This document shows positions 434 through 13,171 of a DNA stretch of 64,000 bases, one piece after another (within the stretch, counting starts at the first letter, position 1; the number at the start of each line of letters is the position of its first letter). A program made the translations under genes and the position numbers. Source of the stretch: Cupriavidus malaysiensis (GTDB taxonomy: Bacteria > Pseudomonadota > Gammaproteobacteria > Burkholderiales > Burkholderiaceae); the NCBI RefSeq assembly GCF_001854325.1, contig NZ_CP017755.1, positions 1,054,001-1,118,000 on the forward strand, written 5' to 3'. The notes beneath the pieces are model-generated. The model was not told the DNA's origin. It was given only the letters and a program-made list of their open reading frames with translations, and searched no databases.

Positions 434-1897
434 TCAGGCGCCCAGCGCGATGCCGTCCTTGCGCTTGTCGGAGGCGCCCAGCAGGCTGCCGTCGGCGGCG
501 CGCAGCACCGCCTGGGCGCCGCCGAAGTCGCTGCGGCCGCCCAGTTCGCCGGCGCCGACCGGATCGGTATAGCCGGCTGCGCGCAGCGCGCGGGTGACGG
601 CCTCGGGCATGCCGTGCTCGATGGCCAGCGCCGTGGCGGACTCCAGGCGCCAGCGCGGCGCGTCGAGGGCGGCCTGCAGCGGCTGCTGCCAGGCCGCCAG
701 CCGCACCAGCAGCTGCAACTGGCCTTGCGGCTGCATCAGCCCGCCGACCACGCCGAAACCGGCATGGAAGCGGCCGTCGCGCTTGGCCGCGCCGGGCACC
801 ACCGTGTGGTAAGGGCGCTTGCGCGGGGCGGCACTGTTGATGTGGCCGGGGCCGGCGAAGCCGAAACCGCGGTTCTGCAGCACGAAGCCGCAGTCCGGCA
901 CCGCGATGCCGGAGCCGAAGCGCTTGAAGATGCTGCTCATCAGCGTGATGGCGAGGCCGTCGGCGTCGACCACGACGGTGCAGACGGTATTGCCGGCCGG
1001 GTCGGCCACGGTCTGGCTGGCATGGCGCATGGCCTCGCCCATGGCGCGCACGGTCTGCAGCACGGCGCCGGGATCGTCGGCGGCGAGCGCCTGCGGTTCC
1101 AGCGCATCGAGCGCGTGCAGGATGGCGACGCCATGCGTGTTGGGCGGGCATTCGAAGACTTCCAGGCCACGGAAGCGGGTCGACACCGGCGCGCGGAAAT
1201 CGCCGCGATGCTCGGCGAAGTCGCCGGCCGCGAGCACGCCGCCGTGTGCCTGGCAGGCCTGCGCCGCCGCGCGTGCCGGCTCGCCGAGGTAGAAGGCGTC
1301 GGGCCCGTCGCTGGCGATGGCCTGCAGCGTGCGCGCCAGCCCGGGATTGGCGAAGCGCTCTCCGGCGGCGGGCGGACGGCCCGCGCGGTAGAGCGCGGCG
1401 CAAACCGGGTCGGCATGGAGCACGCGGTCGAACAGCGCCCATTCGCGCGCCGCCACCGGGGCCACGGCGAAACCGTCGCGCGCCAGCGCGATGGCCGGGG
1501 CCAGCAGCCGCGGCCAGGGCAGCCGCCCATGGCGTTGGTGCAGGTCGTGCCAGCCGCGCACCACGCCGGGCGTGGTGCAGGAATAAGGGTGGCGCTCCGG
1601 GATGCGCTGCCCGGGCAGCGCATCCAGCAGGGCCGGATCGAGGGCCGCCGGCGCGCGTCCGGTGCCGTTGTAGCTGCTGACCTCGCCATCCGGCGCGACC
1701 ACCATGGCCAGCACGTCGCCGCCGATGCTGGTGGCCATCGGTTCGACCACGCCGAGGATGGCGTCGGCGGCCAGCGCGGCGTCGACCGCGCTGCCCCCCT
1801 CGCGCAGGCACTGCAGTGCGGCCTGCGCCGCCAGCGGGTGGCCGCTCGCCACCATGCAGCGTTGGGCGCGCACGCCTTCGGCTTGCGGATTGCTCAT
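434..1897 (-). CDS. Gamma-glutamyltransferase family protein with altered active-site motif
   Basis: A 487-aa protein whose N-terminus (VASGHPLAAQAALQCLREGG, SAVDAALAADAILGVVEPM, IGGDVLAMVV) is typical of GGT-type Ntn hydrolases, which cleave gamma-glutamyl amides. In canonical members the nucleophile is the second Thr of a TTH motif just before VVDADGN. Here that stretch reads NTVCTVVVDADG, so a Val occupies the expected position while a Thr is kept one residue earlier. The downstream FGSGIAVPDCGFVLQNRG block is conserved. No signal peptide is evident, unlike periplasmic GGTs. It is the last gene of the permease-ferredoxin operon. It may be a paralogue with a shifted nucleophile, or inactive. 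The family is secure, the activity is not. Confidence 0.8.
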   Translation of the reverse strand: MSNPQAEGVRAQRCMVASGHPLAAQAALQCLREGGSAVDAALAADAILGVVEPMATSIGGDVLAMVVAPDGEVSSYNGTGRAPAALDPALLDALPGQRIPERHPYSCTTPGVVRGWHDLHQRHGRLPWPRLLAPAIALARDGFAVAPVAAREWALFDRVLHADPVCAALYRAGRPPAAGERFANPGLARTLQAIASDGPDAFYLGEPARAAAQACQAHGGVLAAGDFAEHRGDFRAPVSTRFRGLEVFECPPNTHGVAILHALDALEPQALAADDPGAVLQTVRAMGEAMRHASQTVADPAGNTVCTVVVDADGLAITLMSSIFKRFGSGIAVPDCGFVLQNRGFGFAGPGHINSAAPRKRPYHTVVPGAAKRDGRFHAGFGVVGGLMQPQGQLQLLVRLAAWQQPLQAALDAPRWRLESATALAIEHGMPEAVTRALRAAGYTDPVGAGELGGRSDFGGAQAVLRAADGSLLGASDKRKDGIALGA

Positions 1898-1940
1898 GCG
1901 ATGCTCCCTGGTCTCGGATGGGGCGGATGGGGCGGCCGCG

Positions 1941-2243
1941 TCAGCGCGACACCGTCTCGACGACCTTCCACGACACGCCGATGTCGCCGTTGACGAAGGT
2001 CTGGCAGGCCATGCGATAGCCGGCGGCCAGTTCTTCGGCGCTGAGGTGCTTGTGTTCCTTCGGCTTGACCGTGTCGGTGTGCTCGAGGCCCTGTTCGATC
2101 CTGCACTTGCAGGTGCCGCACAGGCCGCCGCCGCACTTGAAGGGAATGCCGCCTTTCTCGCGCAGCGAGACGCGCAGCAGATTGCTGTTGGGCGGAGCGG
2201 TGACGACCTTGTTGTCGTTGCTCAGGAAGGTGATCTGGATCAT
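1941..2243 (-). CDS. 2Fe-2S ferredoxin (100 aa)
   Basis: A small plant-type ferredoxin with cluster cysteines C37, C42, C45 (C-x4-C-x2-C) and C80. It should carry single electrons in the cytoplasm to an oxygenase or other redox enzyme. It lies in the same operon as a second ferredoxin and the 97-aa protein, 36 bp after the latter. No oxygenase component is encoded in this operon. The nearest candidates under the same operator type are the HDO oxidase (6883-7614) and the flavin reductase (9806-10816), so it may shuttle between them. The partner assignment is inference. Confidence 0.9.
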   Translation of the reverse strand: MIQITFLSNDNKVVTAPPNSNLLRVSLREKGGIPFKCGGGLCGTCKCRIEQGLEHTDTVKPKEHKHLSAEELAAGYRMACQTFVNGDIGVSWKVVETVSR

Positions 2244-2279
2244 CGTTCAGTCCGTATCGGATGGGGGCGGCGGCGGGGC

Positions 2280-2573
2280 TCAGGCCTGCGCCAGTTGCAG
2301 GTCCATGCTGCCGAAGCTGGCCAGGCGGCGCAGCGCGTCGCGCGCGGCCTCGAGCGTGTCGAATCGCTCGAGAAACTTGGTCGGCACGTGGTTGACGAGC
2401 GCGGGCGGCGTTTCCTCGACCACGCGGATCTTCGTTTCGCGCTGCAGCTCGGCGATGACGAAATGCGTGGTGCGGCGGCCATAGAAGAGGTAGTCGTAGC
2501 TTTCCACCGGCACCACGCCGTCGACGGGCTCGGTGCGGAATTGGCCGGGTTTGCTGGTCAGGATCACATACAT
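2280..2573 (-). CDS. Conserved small protein between two ferredoxins, function unknown
   Basis: A 97-aa soluble protein starting MYVILTSKPGQFRTEPVDG, with no cysteine, no signal peptide and no membrane segment. Mixed hydrophobic strands (residues 1-6, 26-45) and a charged C-terminal helix (LERFDTLEAARDALRRLASF) suggest a compact alpha/beta fold. I do not recognise the family. Its position between two ferredoxin genes, with short gaps on both sides, suggests it belongs to the same electron-transfer system, perhaps as an adaptor or small subunit. Confidence 0.75.
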   Translation of the reverse strand: MYVILTSKPGQFRTEPVDGVVPVESYDYLFYGRRTTHFVIAELQRETKIRVVEETPPALVNHVPTKFLERFDTLEAARDALRRLASFGSMDLQLAQA

Positions 2574-2661
2574 GGTCGGGTGTGCAGGCTAGGCGGGGAG
2601 GGGCGGCGGGGCGCCCCGGCCGGGCTGGTGAAGAATGGTTGGCGCGGCGGCTCGCGCCGCC

Positions 2662-2994
2662 TCAGGCGGCGGCCGCGGCGGCAGGCGCGGCGGCATTGGC
2701 CTCGTCGTCCTGGGCCAGTTCGATGTCGTGCGAGATCCAGAGCTGGCAGGCCAGGCGGTAGCCCTGTTCGAGCCGCTCGCCGAGCTGCTTCTTCTCCTTC
2801 CAGTTGGGGGCGGGCAGGTGTTCGCCGCCGGCGATCACGCGGCACGCGCACTTGGAGCACTTGCCCATGCCGCACTCGTAGCGCAGGTTGGGGTAGGGAA
2901 ACTGCTTGATGCCGGCGCGCACCACCAGGTTGGTGTTGTCCTTGACCTCGTCGGCGAAGACCTGGCCGTGCTTGTGAAAGAGAACCTTGGGCAT
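2662..2994 (-). CDS. 2Fe-2S ferredoxin (110 aa)
   Basis: A ferredoxin with cysteines C41, C46, C49 (YECGMGKCSKCAC) and C83. It differs clearly from the ferredoxin at 1941-2243, so the operon carries two distinct electron carriers rather than a recent duplicate. The last 15 residues are an alanine-rich tail ([12 protein letters not shown]) that looks like a low-complexity extension. It follows the permease gene by 73 bp on the same strand. Likely role: electron supply to an oxygenase or oxidase encoded in the divergent half of the cluster. Confidence 0.9.
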   Translation of the reverse strand: MPKVLFHKHGQVFADEVKDNTNLVVRAGIKQFPYPNLRYECGMGKCSKCACRVIAGGEHLPAPNWKEKKQLGERLEQGYRLACQLWISHDIELAQDDEANAAAPAAAAAA

Positions 2995-3067
2995 GACGTC
3001 TGCTCTGTTTGCTGCGGGATGGCTGGGGATGTCCGGGGAGGCGGGCGATGCGCCGGATCGGGGCGGT

Positions 3068-4603
3068 TCAGGACCAGATCAGCATGGCCGCCGCGGTGGA
3101 GCAGGCCAGGCCGATCAGCACCGGGATCAGCAGGGCGCGCACGGCCTCCAGCACCGGCACGCGGGCGAAGCCGGCCACGGCGATCAGCGAGGACCAGGCG
3201 ACCAGCGTGCCGCCGCCGGTCCAGACCGCGCCCATCTGGCCGACCGCCGCCAGCGTGGCGGGATCGAAGCCGACCACCGGGCCCAGCGCGCCGGCCAGGG
3301 TGCCGGTCAGCGGCAGGCCGGCGAAGCCGGAGCCGTCGATGCCGGTGATCATGCCGACCAGCAGCACGCCGAAGGCGACCAGCACGTGGTTGTCGGGAAT
3401 CATGTGCTGGTAGGCCTGGATCAGTTCGAACAGCAGGCTGGGCGCCTTGCCCGGCGGCAGGCCGAGGATCTGCGCGGCGGTCTCGCCGGCGCCGACGAAG
3501 AAGAAGCCCGCGATCGGCAGCACCGAACCCATGGCCTTGAAGGCGAACACGAAGCCGTCGGTGATGTGCTCGGGGCAGACGTCCAGCATCCTGCGCGGGC
3601 CTTCGGCGGCGAGCGTGGCCAGCATCATCAGCACCGCCGCCACGCCGCCCACCAGCGCGGCTGCCTCGCCGCCCTTGAGATCGGCAATGTCGGAGCCGAG
3701 CTTGGGCATCACCATGATGGCGACCACGCAGAGGAAGGCCAGCGGCGTCACCAGCGCGAAGCACTTCGACCACTTGATGCGGCGGCGCTCCACCATCGAC
3801 AGGCTGGCCGCGATGTTCTGCTCGGTCACCAGCGGTTCCTCGTGGCTGGTGCCGCGCGCCAGCTCGGCCTTGTCGAAAGTGCCGCCGCCGTCCACCGGCT
3901 GGGCCCCGCCCGCGCGTGCCTGCCAGCGGTCGAGCAGCAAGCCGCTGGCCGGCACGATGTGCTTGCGCATCGACAGGTAGGCCAGGCTCAGGGCGATGGC
4001 GCCGGTGATGATCGACAGCGTCAGCGCGCGGTCGGCCACCACGGCGGCGCTGACCGCCGCGCCGGCGGCCTTGGCGCTGATGCCGGGCGCCACGCCGATC
4101 ACATAGTCGGACGACAGCGCCATGCCCTGGCCGGCGATGGCGATGGCCATGGCACCCGCCAGCGGCGGCAGCCCGGCGGCGATCGCGGCCGGCAGCAGGA
4201 TGGCCGACACCAGCGGCACCGCCGGGGTCGGCCAGAAGAACAGCGAGATCACGTAGGTGATGGCGGCCAGGATGAAGAAGGCCGAGTGTCCGTTCTTCAT
4301 CACCACGCGGAAGGGCTCGACCATGCGGATGTCCGAGCGCAGCGTCTTCAGCGCGTTGAGCAGCGCCGTCATGAAGGCGATCACCAGGAAGATGTTGAAC
4401 AGCTCCTTGGCGGCCACCAGGCTGGCCGAGAAGATTCCGCCCAGCGCCTGGATCGGGCTGCCGGTCAGGGCGAAGATGACCAGAAAGGTGCCGGTGATGG
4501 CGGGTACCACCACGTTGGCGCGCAGGATCATGGTCAGGACGATGACCGCGACTCCTAGTAGGTAGATCCAGTGCGCGGCACCGATCACGACATCTTGTTG
4601 CAT
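3068..4603 (-). CDS. Multi-spanning inner-membrane permease (ion-transporter type)
   Basis: About 511 aa from the ATG at 4603, which is preceded by an AGGGGA ribosome site. A longer upstream frame exists but would run through the promoter element. At least ten hydrophobic segments are separated by short loops, with one large hydrophilic loop near residues 215-270 (TFDKAELARGTSHEEPLVTEQN). The glycine-rich repeats resemble the ion-transporter superfamily (DcuC/GntP/citrate-type carriers), but I cannot name the subfamily. As first gene of the operon it probably imports the substrate of the pathway. Confidence 0.75.
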   Translation of the reverse strand: MQQDVVIGAAHWIYLLGVAVIVLTMILRANVVVPAITGTFLVIFALTGSPIQALGGIFSASLVAAKELFNIFLVIAFMTALLNALKTLRSDIRMVEPFRVVMKNGHSAFFILAAITYVISLFFWPTPAVPLVSAILLPAAIAAGLPPLAGAMAIAIAGQGMALSSDYVIGVAPGISAKAAGAAVSAAVVADRALTLSIITGAIALSLAYLSMRKHIVPASGLLLDRWQARAGGAQPVDGGGTFDKAELARGTSHEEPLVTEQNIAASLSMVERRRIKWSKCFALVTPLAFLCVVAIMVMPKLGSDIADLKGGEAAALVGGVAAVLMMLATLAAEGPRRMLDVCPEHITDGFVFAFKAMGSVLPIAGFFFVGAGETAAQILGLPPGKAPSLLFELIQAYQHMIPDNHVLVAFGVLLVGMITGIDGSGFAGLPLTGTLAGALGPVVGFDPATLAAVGQMGAVWTGGGTLVAWSSLIAVAGFARVPVLEAVRALLIPVLIGLACSTAAAMLIWS

Positions 4604-4655
4604 GGCGATTCCCCTGGGGCTGAGGTATGTGATGTGAGGGCGGCTCGTTTGCCGT

Positions 4656-4672
4656 TTTCGTATACTATATTC
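4656..4672 (-). promoter_or_regulatory. GTATAC-type element A, permease-ferredoxin operon
   Basis: TTTTCGTATACTATATT lies about 55 bp upstream of the permease start. The GTATAC core fits the general GntR-family operator form GT-M-(N0-1)-K-AC. The same core with similar flanks recurs before four other transcription units of the cluster. It could also overlap a -10 box, since TATAGT is present on the minus strand. Confidence 0.5.
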
Positions 4673-4836
4673 CGATTCGCACTCAAACAAGCGAAATCTG
4701 ATCCGGATTTCTACGTACCCATTTTTGGTGCGGTTTGACGGGAAGCCGCGCATTTATTGGGAATGCGGGCGCCAATCTGGGGCCGGCCGGGCATCGCCGG
4801 CTTCCCTTGGCTTGTGATCTTTCGCTTCTTTTGTGT

Positions 4837-4853
4837 AGACTGTATACCAAATT
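4837..4853 (+). promoter_or_regulatory. GTATAC-type element B, TSUP/OCD unit
   Basis: The element reads GACTGTATACCAAATT on the plus strand, or AATTTGGTATACAGTC in reverse. It lies about 30 bp upstream of the ATG at 4882, in the divergent promoter region shared with element A. Confidence 0.5.
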
Positions 4854-4881
4854 AAGCGAGCCGAGCCGGCCACACGCAGCA

Positions 4882-5637
4882 ATGCACAGCACCTTCCCTT
4901 ACCTGCCTGCGGGCCTGTCCGCCCTGGACTACGCGCTGATGGGCGCCCTGATCTTCGCCGGCGCCTGCCTGCAGGGCATCGGCGGCATCGGCTTCGCCAT
5001 GCTGTCGGCGCCGCTCGGGGCCTTGTTCTTCCCGCAACTGGTGCCGGGGCCGCTGCTGGCGCTGGGCGGCTGCGTGTCGCTGCTGTCGGCGCTGCGCGAA
5101 TTCCGTGCCATCGCCTGGCCGCTGGCGGGCGCGGCCCTGTGCGGGCGCGCCGGTGGCGGCCTGCTGGCGGTGGCGGTGATCAGCAGCCTGCGCCCGGAGC
5201 CGCTCGCCGTGCTGTTCTCGGTGTCCATCCTGCTGGCCGTGGCGATGAGCCTGCTGGGCTGGCGCGTGGCCGCCTCGACCGCCTCGCTGGCGGTGGCCGG
5301 CGCCGCTTCCGGCTTCATGGGCACCATCACTTCGGCCGGGGCGCCGCCTTTTGCCATCGTGATGCAGCACGTGGCGCCCGAGCGCATGCGCGCCACCATC
5401 GGCTGCATCCTGTGCGGCGGGGCCGCGCTGTCGCTGGCCATGCTGTCGGTGGCGGGGCGCTTCGGCGCGGCCGAGGTGCGACTCGGCGTGGCGCTGTCGC
5501 CCTTCCTGCTGGCCGGTTTCGCCCTGTCCAACCGCCTCAGGGGGCGGTGGTCGGCGCTGGCGGTGCGGCGCCTGCTGCTCGCGCTGTGCGCGGCGGGCGC
5601 CCTGGGCGTGCTGGCCAAGCTGGCCTGGCCGGGCTGA
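4882..5637 (+). CDS. TSUP (TauE/SafE) family membrane permease
   Basis: A 251-aa hydrophobic protein with about eight predicted membrane segments. The N-terminal ALIFAGACLQGIGGIGFAML block and the later GAASGFMGTITSAGAPPFAIVM block are the two pseudo-symmetric signatures of TSUP permeases, which export or import organic anions such as sulfonates or sulfoacetate. I chose the ATG at 4882 because an upstream in-frame start would place the operator-like GTATAC element inside the gene. The ribosome site is weak. It is followed by the cyclodeaminase-family gene 127 bp downstream. The substrate is unknown. Confidence 0.85.
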   Translation: MHSTFPYLPAGLSALDYALMGALIFAGACLQGIGGIGFAMLSAPLGALFFPQLVPGPLLALGGCVSLLSALREFRAIAWPLAGAALCGRAGGGLLAVAVISSLRPEPLAVLFSVSILLAVAMSLLGWRVAASTASLAVAGAASGFMGTITSAGAPPFAIVMQHVAPERMRATIGCILCGGAALSLAMLSVAGRFGAAEVRLGVALSPFLLAGFALSNRLRGRWSALAVRRLLLALCAAGALGVLAKLAWPG

Positions 5638-5764
5638 GCCCCGCCCGGCGCGGCGCGGCGCCGGCCTGTGCCGCAGCCCCTTCCCCGGCGCAATCTTCCC
5701 GTTTCCTTTTCGTGTTCGAACCCCAGCGCCAGGCGCCCCCCGCCGGCCAAGTACCGGAGTTGCC

Positions 5765-6688
5765 ATGCAGCATATTTCAGATGAGATGATCGACCGCCAC
5801 GTCAGCGGAGCCGAAGCGCAGCAGGTGATGCTGGAGGCCTTCCGCAGTTTCGCCGACGGTCGCGCGGCCATGCAGGAACGGATCCGTACGGAAGCCGGCG
5901 GCGTCAAGCTGTCGACGCTCGGCGCGGTCATTCCCGAGCGCGGCGTGGCCGGCGCCAAGGTCTATACGACCATCGCCGGCCAGTTTTCCTTCGTCATCCT
6001 GATCTTCTCGAGCGAGGACGGCCGCCCGCTGGCCTCCTTCGATGCCGGCGCCATCACGCGCCTGCGCACCGCTGCCTGCTCGGTGGTCGCCGCGCGCCAC
6101 CTGGCGCGGGCGGATGCCGCCACGCTGGCCTTGTTCGGCGCCGGCACGCAGGGCGTTGCCCATGCCCGGCAGCTCAGCGCGGCCCTGCCGCTCGAACGCA
6201 TCCTGGTCAACGATCCCCACGCCGACGCCGGCCTGCCGGCGCGGCTGTCCGACTGGTGCGGCATTCCGGTCGAACTGGCCGAGGCGGAGGAGGCCGCGGC
6301 CCGGGCCGACATCGTGGTGACCGCCTCGCGCTCCACCACGCCGCTGTTCCCGGGCGCTTCGCTCAAGCCGGGCGCCTTCGTGGCCGCGATCGGTTCCAGC
6401 CTGCCGCATACGCGCGAGCTGGACGACGAGGCCCTGCGCCGCGCGGCGGCGGTGGTGGTGGAGTGGCGCCCGCAGTCCACGCGCGAGGCCGGCGACATCG
6501 TGCTGGCCGGCCCCGGCGTGCTGCCGGCCGACAAGGTGGTCGAACTGGGCGACGTGCTGCTGGGCAAGGTGCGCCCGCGGCGCGGCGACGCCGACATCGT
6601 GGTCTACAAGTCCGTCGGCGTGGGCCTGGAAGACATCGCCCTGGCGGGTTTTGCCTGGGAAAAGATCCGCGCGGCGGGCCACGCCTGA
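5765..6688 (+). CDS. Ornithine cyclodeaminase / mu-crystallin family protein
   Basis: 307 aa with the family's N-terminal dimerisation part and a Rossmann domain (ATLALFGAGTQGVAHARQL, about residues 118-136), then VVTASRSTTPLFPG and AIGSSLPHTRELDD. Members are NAD(P)-dependent and act as ornithine cyclodeaminases, ketimine or pyrroline-2-carboxylate reductases, or related imino/amino-acid enzymes. The sequence alone does not separate these. The cluster context (oxidase, aldehyde dehydrogenase, GGT-like protein) makes an amino- or imino-acid intermediate plausible. The ATG at 5765 gives full family length. Confidence 0.88.
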   Translation: MQHISDEMIDRHVSGAEAQQVMLEAFRSFADGRAAMQERIRTEAGGVKLSTLGAVIPERGVAGAKVYTTIAGQFSFVILIFSSEDGRPLASFDAGAITRLRTAACSVVAARHLARADAATLALFGAGTQGVAHARQLSAALPLERILVNDPHADAGLPARLSDWCGIPVELAEAEEAAARADIVVTASRSTTPLFPGASLKPGAFVAAIGSSLPHTRELDDEALRRAAAVVVEWRPQSTREAGDIVLAGPGVLPADKVVELGDVLLGKVRPRRGDADIVVYKSVGVGLEDIALAGFAWEKIRAAGHA

Positions 6689-6792
6689 CCGTGCCTGCCC
6701 GTCGCCGCGCCGCGGCGGCGTTCTCCGTGGGCGACAGAAGCCATGCAAGCGATGGAAACGCAGAAAACGCTTGCAGCGCCCTGATGAATGTA

Positions 6793-6810
6793 TATAGTAT
6801 ACCAAAAACA
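6793..6810 (+). promoter_or_regulatory. GTATAC-type element C, HDO oxidase unit
   Basis: TATAGTATACCAAAAA, or TTTTTGGTATACTATA in reverse, lies about 75 bp upstream of the oxidase start. The reverse reading shares its TTTNGTATACTATA stretch with element A. Possible -10 boxes (TATAGT, TATACC) overlap it. Confidence 0.5.
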
Positions 6811-6882
6811 GCGACGCGATCCCGAGCGGAGCTGACCCGTCCCAAAGCCACCTGAAGCCAAGCCAAGACAAGGAGCCCCGAC

Positions 6883-7614
6883 ATGGCTGAACTGATGAAC
6901 CGCGAAGCATTCCGTACCGCCCTGGAAGAAGCGATCAAGGGCAAGAGCGCCAACAAGGCCCCGTTCAGCGTGGCCTGGGCGAGCGGCAAGCTGAGCCGCG
7001 CGCACCTGGCGCGCTGGGCCGAGAACCACTATCACTACGTCGGCCCCTTCGCGGACTACCTGGGCTACATCTACGCCCGCACGCCCGACCGCTACACCGA
7101 GGCCAAGGACTTCCTGCTGGCCAATATGTATGAAGAGGAGATCGGCGGCGACCGCCACACCGACCTGCTGATCCGCTTCGCCGAGGCCTGCGGCACCACG
7201 CGCGAGCGCGTGGTCGATCCTGACAATATGTCGCCCACCACGCGCGGCCTGCAGTCGTGGTGCTACGCCGTGGCCATGCGCGAAGACCCGATCGTGGCGG
7301 TGGCCGGCCTGGTGGTCGGGCTGGAGTCGCAGGTGCCGTCGATCTATCGCAAGCAGACGCCGACGCTGCGCGACAAGTACCAGTTCACCGACGAAGAGGT
7401 CGAGTTCTTCGACCTGCATATCGTCTCCGACGAGATCCACGGAGAGCGCGGCTACCAGATCGTGCTGGAGCATGCCAACACGCCGGAACTGCAGCAGCGC
7501 TGCCTGAAGATCTGCGAGATCGGCGCACAGATGCGCCTGCTGTACACCACGGCGCTCTATCACGACTACGTCGCCAAGGACCTGTCGATGGCCGAGCTGG
7601 CGATGGCCGCCTGA
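6883..7614 (+). CDS. Heme-oxygenase-like diiron oxidase (HDO / TenA-PqqC-CADD fold)
   Basis: A 243-aa all-helical protein of the TenA/PqqC/CADD fold. A full set of six candidate iron ligands is present: E85 and H92 (EEEIGGDRH), E148 (VVGLES), and H179, D183, H186 (DLHIVSDEIH). The spacings (7, 56, 31, 4, 3) nearly match those I recall for chlamydial CADD and other HDO oxidases, whereas classic TenA and PqqC lack the metal set. HDO enzymes activate oxygen at a labile Fe2 centre to cleave C-C or C-N bonds or to oxidise amines and carboxylates, and they need external electrons. The ferredoxins and reductase of this cluster could supply these. The substrate is unknown. The ribosome site AAGGAGC precedes the ATG. 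Confidence 0.85.
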   Translation: MAELMNREAFRTALEEAIKGKSANKAPFSVAWASGKLSRAHLARWAENHYHYVGPFADYLGYIYARTPDRYTEAKDFLLANMYEEEIGGDRHTDLLIRFAEACGTTRERVVDPDNMSPTTRGLQSWCYAVAMREDPIVAVAGLVVGLESQVPSIYRKQTPTLRDKYQFTDEEVEFFDLHIVSDEIHGERGYQIVLEHANTPELQQRCLKICEIGAQMRLLYTTALYHDYVAKDLSMAELAMAA

Positions 7615-7647
7615 GTGTCGCGCGGCGCGGCTCTGCCCGCCATGCAC

Positions 7648-7672
7648 GGCGCCCCGCCCGGTGCGGGGCGCC
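7648..7672. terminator. Strong GC hairpin after the HDO gene
   Basis: Arms GGCGCCCCGC and GCGGGGCGCC pair perfectly around a 5-nt loop. There is no T-run, so it may attenuate, terminate with Rho, or protect mRNA ends. Identical arms recur at 10826-10845. Confidence 0.5.
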
Positions 7673-7700
7673 GATCCCATCGATTTCCAGGGTTTGCATC

Positions 7701-9161
7701 ATGACTGTCGGACAGCAAGACGAGTTCTTCAACCACATCGACGGCGAATGGACCAGGAGCCGTTCCGGCCGGACCTTCGACAACGTCAATCCGGCTGACG
7801 TCGCGGACATCGTCGGCCGCTTCCAGGCCTCCTGCGCCGAGGACGCCCAGGCCGCCGTGGCCGCCGCCGCGGCCGCCTTCGATGCCTGGCGCCGCACGCC
7901 GGTGAGCAAGCGGGCCGCGATCCTGAACCGCGCCGCCGATCACCTCGAGGCCAATGCCGCCGGCATCGCCGAGGAACTGACGCGCGAGGAAGGCAAGGCG
8001 CTCTCGCTGAGCAAGGACGAGGTCCTGCGCTCGGCGCAGACCCTGCGCTTCTATGCGGTGGAAGGGCAGACCTTCACCGGCGAGACCTATCCGAACGACG
8101 ATCCCGAGATGGTGGTCTACAGCCAGCGCGAGCCGCTCGGCGTGGTCACCGTGATCGCGCCGTGGAACTTCCCGGTGTCGATTCCCGCGCGCAAGATCGC
8201 GCCGGCGCTGATCGCCGGCAACACCGTGGTGTTCAAGCCGTCCTCGGATGCGCCGCTGTCCGGCTACCGCCTGGCCGAAGCGCTGGTCCAGGCCGGGCTG
8301 CCCAAGGGCGTGCTCAACTTCGTCACCGGCAGCGCCGCCGAGATCGGACCCGGCATCACCGAGCACCCGGCGGTGCGTGCGATCTCCTTCACCGGTTCGA
8401 CCCGCGCGGGCGAACAGATCCACCGCGCCGTGCCGCTGACCACGCGCACGCAGATGGAACTGGGCGGCAAGAACCCGCTGATCGTGATGGAGGATGCCGA
8501 CCTCGACAAGGCGGTCGACCTGACCATCAAGGGCGGCTTCTCGCTCAGCGGCCAGGCCTGTACCGGCACCAGCCGCGTGCTGGTGGCGGCGGCCGTCAAG
8601 GCGCAGTACACGCAGAAGCTGCTGGCGCGCGTGCAGGCCCTCAAGATCGGCAGCGGCATGACGCCGGGCATGGACCTCGGCCCGCTGGCCACGCGCAGGC
8701 AACTCGAGACCGTGCTGTCCTACATCGAGATCGGCAAGGCCGAGGCCACGCTGCTGTGCGGCGGCGAGCGGCTCACCGGCCCCGGCTTCGACCAGGGTTA
8801 CTACGTGTCGCCAGCGGTCTTCACCGACGTGACGCAGTCGATGCGCATCGCCCGCGAAGAGATCTTCGGGCCGGTGATCGCCATCATCGAGTTCAACGGC
8901 TACGCCGATGCCATCGCCAAGGCCAACGACACCGAATACGGGCTGTCCGCGGCGATCGTGACGGCCGATCCGCGCTACATCCACCACTTCGCCACCGACA
9001 TCGAGGCCGGCACCGTGAAGATCAACCGCACCACCACCGGCAACCTGGTGAACGCGCCCTTCGGCGGCCTCAAGCGCTCCAGTACCTCGACCTTCCGCGA
9101 GTCGGGGCGCACCGGGCTCGAGTTCTACACCCAGGTCAAGACGGTCTACCGCGGCTGCTGA
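7701..9161 (+). CDS. NAD(P)-dependent aldehyde dehydrogenase, ketoglutarate-semialdehyde type
   Basis: 486 aa with the full ALDH set: APWNF oxyanion/cofactor motif (residues 153-157), general base E253 in MELGGKNP, nucleophile C287 in SGQACTGTSR, and EEIFGPV near residue 390. The C-terminal INRTTTGNLVNAPFGGLKRSS block is typical of alpha-ketoglutarate-semialdehyde dehydrogenases, but related enzymes accept other short semialdehydes. It probably oxidises an aldehyde released downstream of the HDO reaction. It starts 86 bp after the HDO stop, across the GC hairpin. Confidence 0.9.
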   Translation: MTVGQQDEFFNHIDGEWTRSRSGRTFDNVNPADVADIVGRFQASCAEDAQAAVAAAAAAFDAWRRTPVSKRAAILNRAADHLEANAAGIAEELTREEGKALSLSKDEVLRSAQTLRFYAVEGQTFTGETYPNDDPEMVVYSQREPLGVVTVIAPWNFPVSIPARKIAPALIAGNTVVFKPSSDAPLSGYRLAEALVQAGLPKGVLNFVTGSAAEIGPGITEHPAVRAISFTGSTRAGEQIHRAVPLTTRTQMELGGKNPLIVMEDADLDKAVDLTIKGGFSLSGQACTGTSRVLVAAAVKAQYTQKLLARVQALKIGSGMTPGMDLGPLATRRQLETVLSYIEIGKAEATLLCGGERLTGPGFDQGYYVSPAVFTDVTQSMRIAREEIFGPVIAIIEFNGYADAIAKANDTEYGLSAAIVTADPRYIHHFATDIEAGTVKINRTTTGNLVNAPFGGLKRSSTSTFRESGRTGLEFYTQVKTVYRGC

Positions 9162-9208
9162 CCGGCACGCCGCCGGCAGCACGCATCCCAAGCATCAGGA
9201 GAATCGCA

Positions 9209-9688
9209 GTGAAGAAAGCCATCAAGCTGGAACTGAAGGAAGCGCGCCACATGGTGGCCGCGGCCATCGCCAGGTCGGAACAGATCGGCGTGCTCGAATC
9301 GATCTGCGTGGTCGACGAGGGCGGCTATCCGCTGGCGCTGGAGCGCATGGACGGCGCCCGCATCACCGGCCCGCAGATCGCCTGGAACAAGGCGTTCACC
9401 GCCGCCGGCCACAAGCGCTCCACGCACCTGTTCAACCAGGCGCCCAACGGGCCGGCCCTGCCGGGCAACGAGGCCTTCGGCATCCAGTGGAGCTTCGAAG
9501 GCAAGTTCGCCGTCTTCGTCGGCGGCTTCCCCATCGTGGTCAACGATGAAGTGGTCGGCGGCATCGGCCTGAGCGGCGGCAATGGCGAGCAGGACACGCA
9601 GGCCGGCCTGGCCGCCCTGCAGGCGCTGCAGGAACTGCTGGCGCCGCAGGATCTCAAGGTGCTGGTGCAGGCCGACATCAAGCGCTAG
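9209..9688 (+). CDS. GlcG/HbpS-family protein
   Basis: A 159-aa protein beginning at GTG 9209, with AGGAGA at a good distance. It shows the family pattern LKEARHMVAAAIARSEQIG, SICVVDEGGYPLALERMDGA and PIVVNDEVVGGIGLSGG, with a C-terminal LALQ-rich helix. Members bind heme or corrinoids or act as small accessory enzymes in catabolic operons (glcG, pduO-C type). There is no signal peptide, so it should be cytosolic. Its place between the aldehyde dehydrogenase and the flavin reductase suggests an accessory role in the same pathway. The biochemical function is not known. Confidence 0.85.
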   Translation: MKKAIKLELKEARHMVAAAIARSEQIGVLESICVVDEGGYPLALERMDGARITGPQIAWNKAFTAAGHKRSTHLFNQAPNGPALPGNEAFGIQWSFEGKFAVFVGGFPIVVNDEVVGGIGLSGGNGEQDTQAGLAALQALQELLAPQDLKVLVQADIKR

Positions 9689-9715
9689 TCCGCTGGTCCG
9701 CTGGTCCGCCAGTCC
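9684..9715 (+). repeat. 8-bp tandem repeat across a stop codon (4 units)
   Basis: Units GCTAGTCC, GCTGGTCC, GCTGGTCC and GCCAGTCC run head to tail across the TAG stop of the GlcG/HbpS gene. One of several short tandem arrays at gene ends in this window. Confidence 0.85.
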
Positions 9716-9805
9716 ATCACCCACCTGCCGCGCCGGGCATCGCCGGCGCGGTGCATCGCCCGCATCTGCCTGAACTGAACCGGCAGGAAACCGCCCGAGT
9801 CCATC

Positions 9806-10816
9806 ATGTCCTACCGCATCCAGATCCTGGAGACGCACGAGTCGTTTGTCGTCGAACCCGGCGAAACCCTGCTGCAGGGCGCCACGCGCGCCGGCGTCTG
9901 CCTGCCCCATGACTGCCAGCTCGGCGGTTGCGGCACCTGCCGCATCAAGCTGGTCGAAGGCACCGTGGCCTACGAGGAGTTGCCGATGGGGCTGGCGCCG
10001 GACGAGGAGGCGGCCGGCTACGCGCTGGCCTGCCAGGCCCTGCCGCAGGGCGATGCCGTCATCAGCACCGCGCGCGACGACGAGGCCTGCGCCGCCCCGG
10101 TGGCGCATCACGCGCTGGTGCGCGAAGCCCGCCCGCTTTCGCGCGATGTGCACTACCTGAAGCTGGAGGTGCCCGAGGCGGGCCTGCTCGACTACCGGCC
10201 CGGCCAGTACCTGAAGATCCTCACCGGCGACGGCCGCACGCGCAGCTTCTCGATGGCCTCGGTGCCCAGCGCCGGCGTGGTCGACCTGCACGTGCGCCGC
10301 ATTCCCGGCGGGACCTTCACCGACGGCGCCCTCCAGCAGCTGCGCCCGGGCGATGCGCTGCAGGTGGAGCTGCCGCACGGCGCCTTCTTCTACCGGGCCA
10401 AGGACTACCGGCCGCTGCTGATGGTGGCGACGGGCACCGGGCTGGCACCGATCAAGAGCATCCTCGAGGCGCTGATGGACGACGGCGACTGTCCGCCGGT
10501 CTCGCTCTACTGGGGCGCGCGCGAGCCGTCCGACCTGTACCTGCACGATGAGATCCGCGGCTGGGGCGAGCGCCTCTACGATTTCCGCTACGTACCCGTG
10601 CTGTCGCGCGCGCGGGACGACTGGCAGGGCCGGCGCGGCTACGTGCAGTCGGCCGTGCTGGAAGACCTCGGCGAACTGTCGGGCGAGCTCTCCGAGTACG
10701 CCATCTACCTGTGCGGCTCGCCCGAGATGATCCGCGATGCGCGCGCGGCCTTCGTCGCCCGCGGCGCCAGTCCGGACCATATCTACGCGGACAGCTTCAC
10801 CTTCCAGCGCGGCTGA
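9806..10816 (+). CDS. 2Fe-2S/FAD oxidoreductase (oxygenase reductase component)
   Basis: 336 aa in the order ferredoxin, FAD, NAD. The N-terminal plant-type cluster uses C37, C42, C45 and C76 (HDCQLGGCGTC, ALACQAL). The flavin domain has RSFSMAS and the NAD domain has MVATGTGLAPIKSILEAL and a late IYLCGSPEMI. This layout is that of CDP-glucoseen reductase, phenol-hydroxylase reductase and similar proteins that pass NAD(P)H electrons to oxygenases. No hydroxylase subunits follow it. In this cluster the HDO oxidase and the two ferredoxins are the likely electron acceptors. This is inference from position and the shared operator type. Confidence 0.9.
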   Translation: MSYRIQILETHESFVVEPGETLLQGATRAGVCLPHDCQLGGCGTCRIKLVEGTVAYEELPMGLAPDEEAAGYALACQALPQGDAVISTARDDEACAAPVAHHALVREARPLSRDVHYLKLEVPEAGLLDYRPGQYLKILTGDGRTRSFSMASVPSAGVVDLHVRRIPGGTFTDGALQQLRPGDALQVELPHGAFFYRAKDYRPLLMVATGTGLAPIKSILEALMDDGDCPPVSLYWGAREPSDLYLHDEIRGWGERLYDFRYVPVLSRARDDWQGRRGYVQSAVLEDLGELSGELSEYAIYLCGSPEMIRDARAAFVARGASPDHIYADSFTFQRG

Positions 10817-10825
10817 GCCTGCGCC

Positions 10826-10845
10826 GGCGCCCCGCGCGGGGCGCC
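10826..10845. terminator. Perfect GC palindrome after the reductase gene
   Basis: GGCGCCCCGC is followed directly by GCGGGGCGCC, giving a 20-bp perfect inverted repeat 10 bp after the stop. The arms equal those at 7648-7672. There is no T-tract. Confidence 0.5.
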
Positions 10846-10909
10846 GCTTCGCTTCCAGCTACCGGCCGGCGGATTCCTGACCTTCGAATCACCACGACAC
10901 GAGGCAGCC

Positions 10910-11632
10910 ATGCCATCTCGCGGCGAGGCAAGCATCGCAACCGGCCTGGACGCGCAGCCGGACGACGATGCCGGATTGCGCACCATTCCCCTCTTCGCGC
11001 AGGTGGCGGAACTGCTGCGCCGGCGCATCGTCGCCGGCATCTACACCCAGGGCACGCGGCTGGTGGAAGGGCGGCTGTCGGCGGAGCTGGGCGTGTCGCG
11101 CGTGCCGGTGCGCGAGGCGCTGCACGCACTGGCCACCGAGGGGCTGGTCGAGCTGTCGCCGCGCCGCAGTGCTTCGGTGACGCGCGTGCCCGATGCCATC
11201 GGCCGCGAACTGGTCGAGGTGCGCGCCACGCTGGAGGGCCTCAATGCGCGCCTGGCGGCCCAGCGCCGCGACCCGGCGCTGGGCGCCCGGCTCGAGGCGG
11301 TGCAGCGTGAAGGACGCCTGGCCGCCGCCGACGGCCGTACCGAAGCGCTGCTGCGGCTCAATGCCAGCTTCCACGAACTGCTGGCCTCCACCGCCGCCAA
11401 CAGCGTGCTGCGCGAGATGGTGCGCTCGCTGCGCGAGCGCACCTTCCTGATGTTCGCGCCGGTCGACGCGGCGCGCGCGCGCCAGAACTGGGAAGAGCAT
11501 GCGCGCATCCTGCAGGCGGTGATCGATGGCGACGCCGACCTGGCGGCGCTGCTGGCCAGCCGCCATGTCTACAGTGCCCATGCCGCCATGTCGCGGCGCG
11601 GCGCCGGCGCGGGCGGGGCGGCGCCGGGGTGA
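10910..11632 (+). CDS. GntR-family regulator, FCD subfamily (copy 1)
   Basis: A 240-aa protein with an N-terminal winged helix (residues about 20-90, containing ELGVSRVPVREALHALATEGLVEL) and an all-helical FCD effector domain (about 95-230). It is clearly a paralogue of the next gene, sharing EMVEVRATLEGLNA-type and LAAQRRDPAL blocks, so the two arose by tandem duplication. FCD regulators usually repress catabolic operons and respond to the pathway substrate or an intermediate acid. It starts 93 bp after the reductase, behind the GC palindrome, and no GTATAC element precedes it. Confidence 0.93.
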   Translation: MPSRGEASIATGLDAQPDDDAGLRTIPLFAQVAELLRRRIVAGIYTQGTRLVEGRLSAELGVSRVPVREALHALATEGLVELSPRRSASVTRVPDAIGRELVEVRATLEGLNARLAAQRRDPALGARLEAVQREGRLAAADGRTEALLRLNASFHELLASTAANSVLREMVRSLRERTFLMFAPVDAARARQNWEEHARILQAVIDGDADLAALLASRHVYSAHAAMSRRGAGAGGAAPG

Positions 11633-11644
11633 TGTCTTGACATC

Positions 11645-11660
11645 TCTGGTATACAATACC
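11645..11660 (+). promoter_or_regulatory. GTATAC-type element D, second GntR gene
   Basis: TCTGGTATACAATACC lies about 90 bp upstream of the second GntR/FCD gene and directly after the stop of the first. It would suit autoregulation. The core equals that of elements A, B, C and E. Confidence 0.5.
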
Positions 11661-11750
11661 GGCAAATGTCTCCCAACCTGCCGAGCCGCGCCGCCGCGTG
11701 GCGGTTGGCGGGTGGCGGCGGAGCATCCTGCCAACCCCGGTCATTCCTTC

Positions 11751-12470
11751 ATGTCAGAAAAGCGCGCCAATGCCCAGTCCGGGCCTGTTTCCGAGCCTGC
11801 GGTCGTGAGTCTCGGGGCGAGCCATTCGCCGCTGTTCGCGCTCGTCACCGACAAGCTGCGCGAGCGGATCCTCAACGGGCAGTACGAGCCGGGCGAGCGC
11901 TTGGTGGAGAACAAGCTGTCTTCCGAACTCGGCGTGTCGCGCATTCCGGTGCGCGAGGCGCTGCGTTCGCTGGCGACCGAGGGGCTGGTGGTGATCGAGC
12001 CGCGCCGCGGCGCTTCGGTGGCCAAGCTGTCGCCGGACGTGGCGCGCGAGATGGTGGAAGTGCGCGCCACGCTGGAAGGCCTCAATGCCAAGCTGGCGGC
12101 GCAGCGGCGCGATCCTGCGCTGCTGGCCGAACTGGAGCAGGTGCTGCGCGACGGCGCCGAAGCCGCCGCCCAGGGCCGCGGCGACCAGTTGCTGGCGCTC
12201 AACTCGCGCTTCCACGAAGTGCTGGGCACCATCGCCGCCAACAGCGTGCTGCAGGAAATGATGCGCTCGCTGCGCGAGCGCACCGCCGCGCTGTTCGCGC
12301 CGGCCAACCTGGTGCGCGCCCGCCAGAACTGGGATGAGCACGCGCAGATCCTGCAGGCCGTGATCGCCGGCGACGCCGACCTGGCGGCCCTGCTGGCCGC
12401 GCGGCATGTCTACAGCGCCGCCAAGGCGGCCGAACTGTCCGTCGGCGATACCACTACGCGCGCTGCCTGA
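11751..12470 (+). CDS. GntR-family regulator, FCD subfamily (copy 2)
   Basis: 239 aa from ATG 11751. The winged helix holds KLSSELGVSRIPVREALRSLATEGLVVIEPRRGASV, and the FCD domain includes RFHEVLGTIAANSVLQEMMRSLRER and WDEHAQILQAVIAGD. Much of the sequence is identical to copy 1, mainly outside the N-terminal tail. Having its own GTATAC element suggests that it, or both copies, reads that operator. Copy 2 could be the principal regulator and copy 1 a diverged sensor with a different effector range. Confidence 0.93.
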   Translation: MSEKRANAQSGPVSEPAVVSLGASHSPLFALVTDKLRERILNGQYEPGERLVENKLSSELGVSRIPVREALRSLATEGLVVIEPRRGASVAKLSPDVAREMVEVRATLEGLNAKLAAQRRDPALLAELEQVLRDGAEAAAQGRGDQLLALNSRFHEVLGTIAANSVLQEMMRSLRERTAALFAPANLVRARQNWDEHAQILQAVIAGDADLAALLAARHVYSAAKAAELSVGDTTTRAA

Positions 12471-12547
12471 GCGGCGCGTGCGCCGCGCAGGTCTTGCGCA
12501 AAACGTGCCTGGACGCCATCAGCGCGCGCCGATGGCATTGATCGCGC

Positions 12548-13171
12548 TCAGCGCGCCGGCTGTTCGCGCAGGGCGAAGGCCCGGCGCGCGGCCGGGCGCG
12601 CCAGGCAGCGCCGGTGCCAGTCCCAGGCTGCCGCATACCGCTCGCCGCCAAGCTCCGCGAAGCGGTGCAGCACCGCCGCCAGGTTCAGGTCGGCCACACT
12701 GAATTCCTTGCCCAGCAGGTAGTCCCGTTGCGCCAGCTGCGCCTCCAGCACCGCGAAGCGCCGGGCGAGCGCCTGCAGGGCCTCGTCCGCCAGCTCGGGC
12801 CGGCGCCGCTCGGGCGGCAGCATGCGGCTGTGCTGGGTCCATTGCGTGGTCAGCGGCTCGACCGAGGTCGCCGCCCACAAGGTCCACTGCAGCGCCAGCG
12901 ATTGCGCATCGGCATCCGCCGGCCACAGGCCGGCCGCGGCGTGCTTGCGCGCCAGGTGCAGCGTGATGGCCAGCGATTCGAACAGCACCAGGCCGTCATC
13001 CTCGATGGTCGGCACCAGTCCGTTGGGATTCAGCTTCAGGTAGGGCGCCGCCTTGACCTCCGGCGAGGCGTAGTGCAGCGGGATGTTCTCGTAGGCCAGG
13101 CCGAGTTCCTCTGCCGCCCACAGCGGGCGGATCGCGCGGGAGGCCGGGATGCCGTAGATTTTCAGGGTCAT
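12548..13171 (-). CDS. Glutathione S-transferase family protein
   Basis: 207 aa with an N-terminal thioredoxin fold (LKIYGIPASRAIRPLWAAEELGLAYENIPL; catalytic Ser/Thr region at residues 9-12; VPTIEDDG and LFESLAITLHLA for glutathione contacts) and a C-terminal helical domain (LLGKEFSVADLNLAAVL). It would conjugate or isomerise an electrophile with glutathione, or act as a peroxidase. It is on the opposite strand at the right edge of the cluster, but it has its own GTATAC element, so it may be co-regulated. Together with the GGT-like protein it hints at thiol chemistry in the pathway. Confidence 0.92.
   Translation of the reverse strand: MTLKIYGIPASRAIRPLWAAEELGLAYENIPLHYASPEVKAAPYLKLNPNGLVPTIEDDGLVLFESLAITLHLARKHAAAGLWPADADAQSLALQWTLWAATSVEPLTTQWTQHSRMLPPERRRPELADEALQALARRFAVLEAQLAQRDYLLGKEFSVADLNLAAVLHRFAELGGERYAAAWDWHRRCLARPAARRAFALREQPAR

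Follow-up and report, generated by a model that had tools for sequence, protein, structure and literature searches.

How do heme-oxygenase-like diiron oxidases and oxygenases (HDOs) obtain their electrons inside cells? A dedicated partner has been described for one of them (PMC13185094, in the part of that report available to us), and multiple turnovers of the characterised HDOs, FlcD apart, are described as needing auxiliary reductants (PMC11363339, likewise in part). The question is raised anew by a gene cluster of Cupriavidus malaysiensis that lies in a 64,000-nucleotide stretch of contig NZ_CP017755.1 (positions 1,054,001 to 1,118,000), called the window below and located on contig 2 of a three-contig genome of 7.95 Mb. 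An HDO gene (hdo) stands here among genes for two ferredoxins (fdA, fdB), a 97-residue protein (p97), a reductase (red), an aldehyde dehydrogenase (aldh), permeases and GntR-type regulators. The minus-strand genes, reading outward, are ggt-fdA-p97-fdB-perm, and the plus strand carries tauE-ocd-hdo-aldh-glcG-red-gntR1-gntR2, with gst beyond; every gene named in a preliminary description of this DNA was found in its place or close to it. We consider it probable that the cluster is a GntR-regulated catabolic module around a multi-component HDO oxygenase, which is fed by the reductase and the ferredoxins.

The HDO and its metal site

The product of hdo is a member of the Pfam family Haem_oxygenas_2, with 128 bits against a cut-off of 28.9. 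Its nearest named relatives are from Cupriavidus (96% identity), and its closest solved relatives by sequence are CADD-type proteins that are named 4-aminobenzoate synthases in the PDB. The predicted structure, whose predicted local distance difference test score (pLDDT) is only 72, was matched by Foldseek to PqqC, CADD and UndA, PqqC and CADD being its closest solved relatives by model; the protein is assigned to the seven-helix heme-oxygenase fold.

The preliminary description had put forward E85, H92, E148, H179, D183 and H186 as candidate iron ligands, and would have counted their failure to superpose on HDO metal sites as a refutation. In a HMMER alignment all six fall on metal-site residues of CADD, which we take to be its metal ligands, and each of them is 100% conserved in every one of three HDO types, 119 sequences in all after removal of identical sequences and of pieces shorter than 180 residues. 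These comprise 78 type I sequences (the window included), 27 of type II, a sister clade with 43-49% identity to the window HDO, and 14 others grouped as type III, of which 13 are CADD-like. In a quick tree a single branch separates type I from the remaining sequences, and likewise type II, with support of 97 and 88.

The likeness to CADD raises the possibility that this HDO is a self-sacrificing p-aminobenzoate (pABA) synthase, a cofactor-making enzyme whose neighbours are unrelated to it. Besides the PDB relatives mentioned above, the best NCBIfam model is indeed CADD (TIGR04305), but its 95 bits are far below, and less than half of, the cut-off of 200. The residues of the self-sacrificing reaction in CADD, the sacrificed Tyr27 and Lys152, are replaced: Ser stands at the Tyr position in every type I and type II sequence, and the Lys position is Gln in type I and Thr in type II (Ser29 and Gln158 in 78 of 78 type I sequences each), whereas the CADD-like type III keeps Tyr and Lys in 93% each. 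Regulated transporters and an aldehyde dehydrogenase, moreover, fit catabolism. We therefore rejected the assignment as a CADD-type pABA synthase and regard this explanation as very improbable. The PqqC model (TIGR02111) gave 50.8 bits, below its cut-off of 240.

Two further HDO-like sequences were seen. The genome G558, which carries a type I HDO, holds a third HDO gene (L147, 9014-9700) with 34% identity to the window HDO, which adjoins a gene for a TctC-type receptor in a locus without a labelled window-type ferredoxin gene; it is possibly another HDO branch. Elsewhere in the window genome, a weak HDO-like match (G000:C2:1946096-1946656, L002) lies in a 573-residue frame at 23% identity (E 2.9e-4).

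Co-occurrence of the HDO with a ferredoxin operon

A scan of contigs recovered 465 HDO relatives. The top 80 of these (86-96% identity) supplied the type I loci, each with at most 10 kb on either side, in which genes were counted by tblastn at 1e-6; the counts therefore describe close relatives. Besides hdo (80 of 80), the loci hold glcG (79), fdB (78), gntR (78), fdA (77), p97 (77), perm (75), aldh (75), red (57), tauE (48) and ocd (31), while GGT-family genes are found in 5 (three above 60% identity) and gst in 1. The order fdB-p97-fdA is contiguous and on one strand in all 77 loci holding the three genes; in 48 of the 77 it is next to hdo and on its strand, and in 4 it is adjacent and divergent. 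p97 and fdA are missing from three loci: a contig end cuts two of these, one beginning 538 bases before hdo (L005) and the other ending about 450 bases after it (L069), and the third (L080), a 9.5-kb contig that has 1.7 kb ahead of hdo, was counted as undecided. Relative to the window, hdo (89.6%) and glcG (85%) have the highest median identities, those of fdB, fdA, ocd, aldh and perm are about 76-78%, and red (58.8%), p97 (58.6%) and tauE (54.5%) are low.

The association was also followed through whole genomes. Among 399 genomes of the order, a type I HDO (at least 81% identity) is present in 10, and 13 more have only distant relatives of about 30% identity; p97 occurs in 9 of the 399, namely in 9 of the 10 genomes with a type I HDO (the exception being G558) and in 0 of the 389 others. 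In 76 genomes of a distant order, with type I HDOs in 3 and type II HDOs in 29, p97 was found in exactly the 3 and in 0 of the 29. The genus sample of 60 genomes has the HDO in 55 and p97 in 54, with both in 53 and neither in 4. The preliminary description would have been refuted by genomes in which the HDO and the ferredoxin operon are never together; since they stand together in 77 of 80 loci, with the other three cut or undecided, and p97 co-occurs with type I HDOs across the samples, the ferredoxin operon is a real partner of the HDO.

In a sample of the phylum, 5 of 398 genomes matched the HDO at 1e-40, four of them with type I (three from the home genus) and one with type II, and in the order of G287 the match was confined to 1 of 249 genomes, the centre genome itself. 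The module is therefore patchy outside its home genera. Plasmid-class replicons carry it as well, in Caballeronia (2) and Cupriavidus (4).

A sister clade with a Rieske-type protein

The type II set has 40 loci, 13 of them long, drawn from 28 genomes, with some retrieved twice. A Rieske-type protein of about 275 residues is encoded beside hdo in 40 of 40 loci and 28 of 28 genomes, divergently and within about 130 bases in 39 of the loci; in L191 (G1112), the most divergent locus, the gene is on the same strand, 514 bases from hdo. The glcG gene is present in 39 of 40 loci, the exception (L158) being a 2.3-kb piece. All 13 long loci hold glcG and gntR, and tblastn at 1e-6 found in them no relative of fdA, fdB, p97, red or aldh.

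The Rieske domain (PF00355) scored above its cut-off in all seven proteins scanned, and in an alignment of 39 rows the 90% consensus contains the CxH and CxxH motifs. The ring-hydroxylase catalytic domain (PF00848) was below its cut-off or absent in six of the seven and above it in the seventh, that of L191. The usual pattern of the ring-hydroxylase catalytic iron is YH...H after NWK, and it was seen in none of the 39 aligned rows, that of L191 included. On the simplest reading, HDO, GlcG and GntR form a shared core, with an Fe-S partner that differs between the clades. This reading, with an Fe-S protein retained in type II but of another kind, supports an electron-supply role of fdA and fdB better than synteny would by itself, and the sister clade would represent a natural change of donor type.

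Some other features of the type II loci may be mentioned. They hold an AMP-binding protein; hdo is in tandem duplicate in one of them (L192, 9542-11114, G1099); and a CmcJ/NvfI-family oxidoreductase, seen just past the Rieske gene in L145 (7919-8776), recurs in 8 of 15 loci compared.

Ferredoxins, reductase and p97

The presumed cluster cysteines of fdB (C41, C46, C49 and C83) are invariant in 79 of 79 sequences, and those of fdA (C37, C42, C45 and C80) in 78 of 78; in the Fer2 domain of red, three cysteines are kept in 56 of 57 sequences and the fourth in 57 of 57. The reductase scored 190 bits with the NCBIfam BenC model, below the cut-off of 430. Seven Bradyrhizobium loci without a BenC-like reductase hold, 6-9 kb off, an FAD/NAD/Fer2 protein of another domain order, which was scanned for domains in one of the seven and may be linked to the cluster.

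Searches of Pfam (up to E 10), NCBIfam and PHROGs gave no family for p97 with a meaningful score. The window protein contains no cysteine, and 16 of 77 relatives have some, none of them conserved. Its predicted structure is confident (pLDDT 93, predicted template modelling score 0.83) and shows a beta-rich fold with one main helix; among PDB structures it has no clear fold counterpart, a result that, for homology to MmoB/TmoD-type effectors, rests on the folds listed. As HDOs studied to date are stated to need no protein effector (PMC13108848, in its available part), p97 is a candidate for the first one.

The same small proteins could serve another purpose, namely to assemble or repair the diiron cofactor of the HDO and not to feed its turnover. 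Class I ribonucleotide reductase has such a helper in YfaE. The proximity of small Fer2 proteins to a diiron protein would suit that role, the Fer2 part of red shows a weak likeness to YfaE (34 bits, cut-off 75), and the window reductase type was not found in 23 of the 80 loci. However, two different ferredoxins with, in most loci, a complete reductase, and in the sister clade a Rieske protein, would be much for repair, and the permeases, the aldehyde dehydrogenase and the regulator suggest substrate flux. We therefore consider cofactor repair unlikely, though the likeliest of the alternatives weighed here.

Operator-like element and regulators

The preliminary description had claimed that most promoters of the cluster share one element, and this element is real. 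The sequence TATAGTATACCAAA, allowing at most 3 mismatches, has 4 sites in the window where 0.06 are expected, ahead of perm, tauE and hdo and between gntR1 and gntR2, that is, before gntR2 (Table 1). A stricter form, which misses two of the four sites, occurs twice in the 7.95-Mb genome, both times in the cluster, and its control, the same form read backwards, occurs once in the genome. For the 80 type I loci, base composition predicts 137 copies of GTATAC, and 414 were found; given the relatedness of the loci, these sites are not independent. The two regulator genes themselves (10910-12470) share 300 nucleotides at 78% and 192 nucleotides at 72% identity, with a spacing of 841.

Table 1. Genes and operator-like elements of the HDO cluster in the window
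Feature	Position	Strand	Basis
hdo, type I heme-oxygenase-like diiron oxidase/oxygenase	6883..7614	+	Pfam PF14518 3.7e-37; ligands
fdB, 110-aa plant-type [2Fe-2S] ferredoxin	2662..2994	-	Fer2 1.1e-7
p97, 97-aa accessory protein, candidate effector/adaptor	2280..2573	-	no Pfam/NCBIfam family
fdA, 100-aa plant-type [2Fe-2S] ferredoxin	1941..2243	-	Fer2 2e-13
red, BenC/MmoC-like Fer2-FAD-NAD(P) reductase	9806..10816	+	Fer2-FAD-NAD domains; BenC model
aldh, aldehyde dehydrogenase	7701..9161	+	Aldedh 1.9e-165
glcG, HbpS/GlcG (DUF336) protein, GTG start	9209..9688	+	PF03928 1.1e-32
perm, ~511-aa membrane permease without Pfam family	3068..4603	-	"permease" by eye from hydrophobicity
tauE, TauE/SafE-family permease, accessory	4882..5637	+	PF01925 9.5e-14
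ocd, ornithine cyclodeaminase/mu-crystallin family, accessory	5765..6688	+	PF02423 1.3e-48; PDB 3hdj 381 bits
gntR1, GntR/FCD regulator, tandem paralogue of gntR2	10910..11632	+	
gntR2, GntR/FCD regulator	11751..12470	+	
ggt, GGT-family Ntn-hydrolase, accessory, variable	434..1897	-	PF01019 2.3e-107; candidate catalytic Thr304
gst, glutathione S-transferase, accessory	12548..13171	-	also in one C. basilensis copy
operator-like element upstream of hdo	6789..6806	+	
operator-like element upstream of tauE	4834..4851	+	
operator-like element upstream of perm	4656..4669	-	
operator-like element between gntR1 and gntR2	11645..11658	-	

Aldehyde dehydrogenase, GlcG, permease and hydrolases

The nearest models of aldh are alpha-ketoglutaric semialdehyde dehydrogenase and betaine aldehyde dehydrogenase, below each cut-off shown, and perm is kept in most loci, as counted above, although Pfam gave nothing for it up to E 10. 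GlcG is homologous (52 bits) to EfgA, a DUF336 protein described as a formaldehyde sensor (PMC8153426, in part available). Like EfgA, it keeps the three residues for which formaldehyde binding was proposed in that report: 79 of 79 sequences have K61, S122 and D129, which were matched by eye, from alignment and spacing, to EfgA K57, S114 and D121. This conservation is a weak point, since the residues are common in DUF336. Some HDO reactions, such as that of BesC, release small aldehydes. A release of this kind would fit the presence of both aldh and glcG.

Hydrolases vary among the loci. An amidase of the AS family is found in 20 of 80 and a major facilitator superfamily (MFS) transporter in 20 of 80, both together in 19, and lineage-specific hydrolases include an alpha/beta hydrolase in Caballeronia and a carboxylesterase in one further locus (L149). 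As the hydrolase differs by lineage, the substrate may often arrive as an amide or ester. The preliminary description had put the GGT-like protein in its title and had raised an amino- or gamma-glutamyl-type substrate as speculation, but the loci do not support GGT and a gamma-glutamyl substrate as defining: 5 of the 80 contain a GGT-family gene, and clusters elsewhere have an amidase, alpha/beta hydrolase or carboxylesterase. The ggt product of the window itself is well above the PF01019 cut-off and reaches 260.9 bits with the gamma-glutamyltransferase model TIGR00066, below the cut-off of 357.85. A locus of C. basilensis (L025, 2078-15312) carries two HDO modules in opposite orientation, one reading perm-hdo-aldh-glcG-red-gntR and the other, on one strand, hdo-fdB-p97-fdA-perm-GGT-gst. 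This second copy shows that GGT and GST belong to one variant. Of the gene set described earlier, GGT, GST (1 of 80) and ocd (31 of 80) are accessory, outside the core.

These neighbours also bear on whether the HDO might belong to a small biosynthetic cluster for a natural product or signal, with the permease as an exporter and the aldehyde dehydrogenase as a tailoring enzyme. Such an origin would agree with the statement that characterised HDOs mainly serve natural-product biosynthesis (PMC13108848, as far as available). Among the recurrent type I neighbours inspected, however, there is no carrier protein, synthetase or peptide gene, and the presence of the HDO in 55 of 60 genomes of the genus, together with variable hydrolases, fits nutrient use. 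A biosynthetic role seems to us improbable, slightly more so than cofactor repair.

Proposed mechanism

In the catabolic module that we favor, perm would import a small organic substrate, which in some strains is perhaps first freed by an amidase, a GGT-type or an esterase-type hydrolase. Electrons would pass from NADH through the BenC-like reductase and the two [2Fe-2S] ferredoxins to the diiron site of the HDO, which would activate O2, and the substrate would be hydroxylated, dehydrogenated or oxidatively cleaved, with the ferredoxins supplying two further electrons per turnover. p97, which lacks conserved cysteine, would most likely act as an adaptor or effector coupling a ferredoxin to the HDO. 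The product or a by-product may often be an aldehyde, to be oxidised by the aldehyde dehydrogenase and possibly bound or sensed by GlcG.

Several observations weigh against this scheme or parts of it. In the genus sample, the HDO occurs without p97 in G809 and G814, and p97 without the HDO in G818; all three discordances lie at contig ends, the G809 HDO being split over contig ends, the G814 HDO beginning 539 bases into its contig and the G818 p97 lying 0.5 kb from a contig end. The G558 lineage, whose HDO is 81% identical, has hdo, fdB and fdA without p97, and there fdB runs straight into fdA. The window reductase type was not found in 23 of the 80 loci, nor aldh in 5 of them. Both aldh and the BenC-like reductase are outside the core common to types I and II, as tblastn found no relative of either in the 13 long type II loci. 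The Rieske protein of L191 exceeds the PF00848 cut-off (30.6 against 24.9 bits), and may, at least in that locus, have a catalytic role. Finally, DUF336 proteins occur in many pathways.

A bolder version of the scheme would see here the first HDO monooxygenase built of several components, which would parallel the soluble diiron monooxygenases in a heme-oxygenase fold and serve catabolism, with a reductase, two ferredoxins and p97 as its effector; the sister-clade Rieske protein would derive from a ring-hydroxylating oxygenase whose catalytic iron site was lost. We hold this possible but rather doubtful. If it were true, p97 would represent a new protein family and the first protein effector of an HDO, and a requirement for p97 would contradict the statement, in the available part of PMC13108848, that HDOs studied so far need none. 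In practical terms, the cluster places genes for candidate electron donors next to an HDO gene in cultured genera (Cupriavidus, Achromobacter and Bradyrhizobium), and the identity of the substrate would give a function to the HDO of 55 of the 60 sampled genomes of the genus.

Comparison with known systems

Soluble diiron multicomponent monooxygenases combine a ferritin-like hydroxylase with a ferredoxin or reductase and an effector. The window resembles them in having a diiron oxygenase, an MmoC/BenC-like reductase, a ferredoxin and a small cofactor-free protein, but its oxygenase belongs to the heme-oxygenase-like family instead of the ferritin-like one. With CADD and the Nitrosomonas-type pABA synthase (TIGR04305), the HDO shares fold and ligands, but the Tyr and Lys of self-sacrifice are replaced in it.

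In the literature searched we found no description of a two-ferredoxin HDO system with a fold-orphan accessory protein, although one may already be in print; PMC13061610, on a ferritin-like enzyme, and PMC10849742, each in its available part, do not bear on the window cluster. One of the closest systems is that of mangotoxin biosynthesis (April 2026), in which the HDO MboA works with MboB, a flavin/Fe2S2 reductase that MboA needs for its second oxidation, and which its authors call possibly the first characterised HDO redox pair (PMC13185094, available in part, as for all that follows on this pair). The preliminary description had held that a dedicated electron chain for an HDO would be notable. 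What looks like such a chain does stand in a conserved, regulated and catabolic-looking cluster, but the idea is no longer without precedent, as MboA/MboB has been published (PMC13185094). That pair, like the window, has a dedicated NAD(P)H-flavin-[2Fe-2S] partner gene adjoining the HDO gene and a site of three histidines and three carboxylates; unlike the window, and compared by description only, it acts on a tripeptide biosynthetic substrate and is described without separate ferredoxins, p97, GlcG, aldehyde dehydrogenase or permease (PMC13185094). The cluster suggests that the HDO family also has multi-part degradative versions. The window system differs from MboA/MboB by its two ferredoxins, p97, GlcG and catabolic-looking neighbours.

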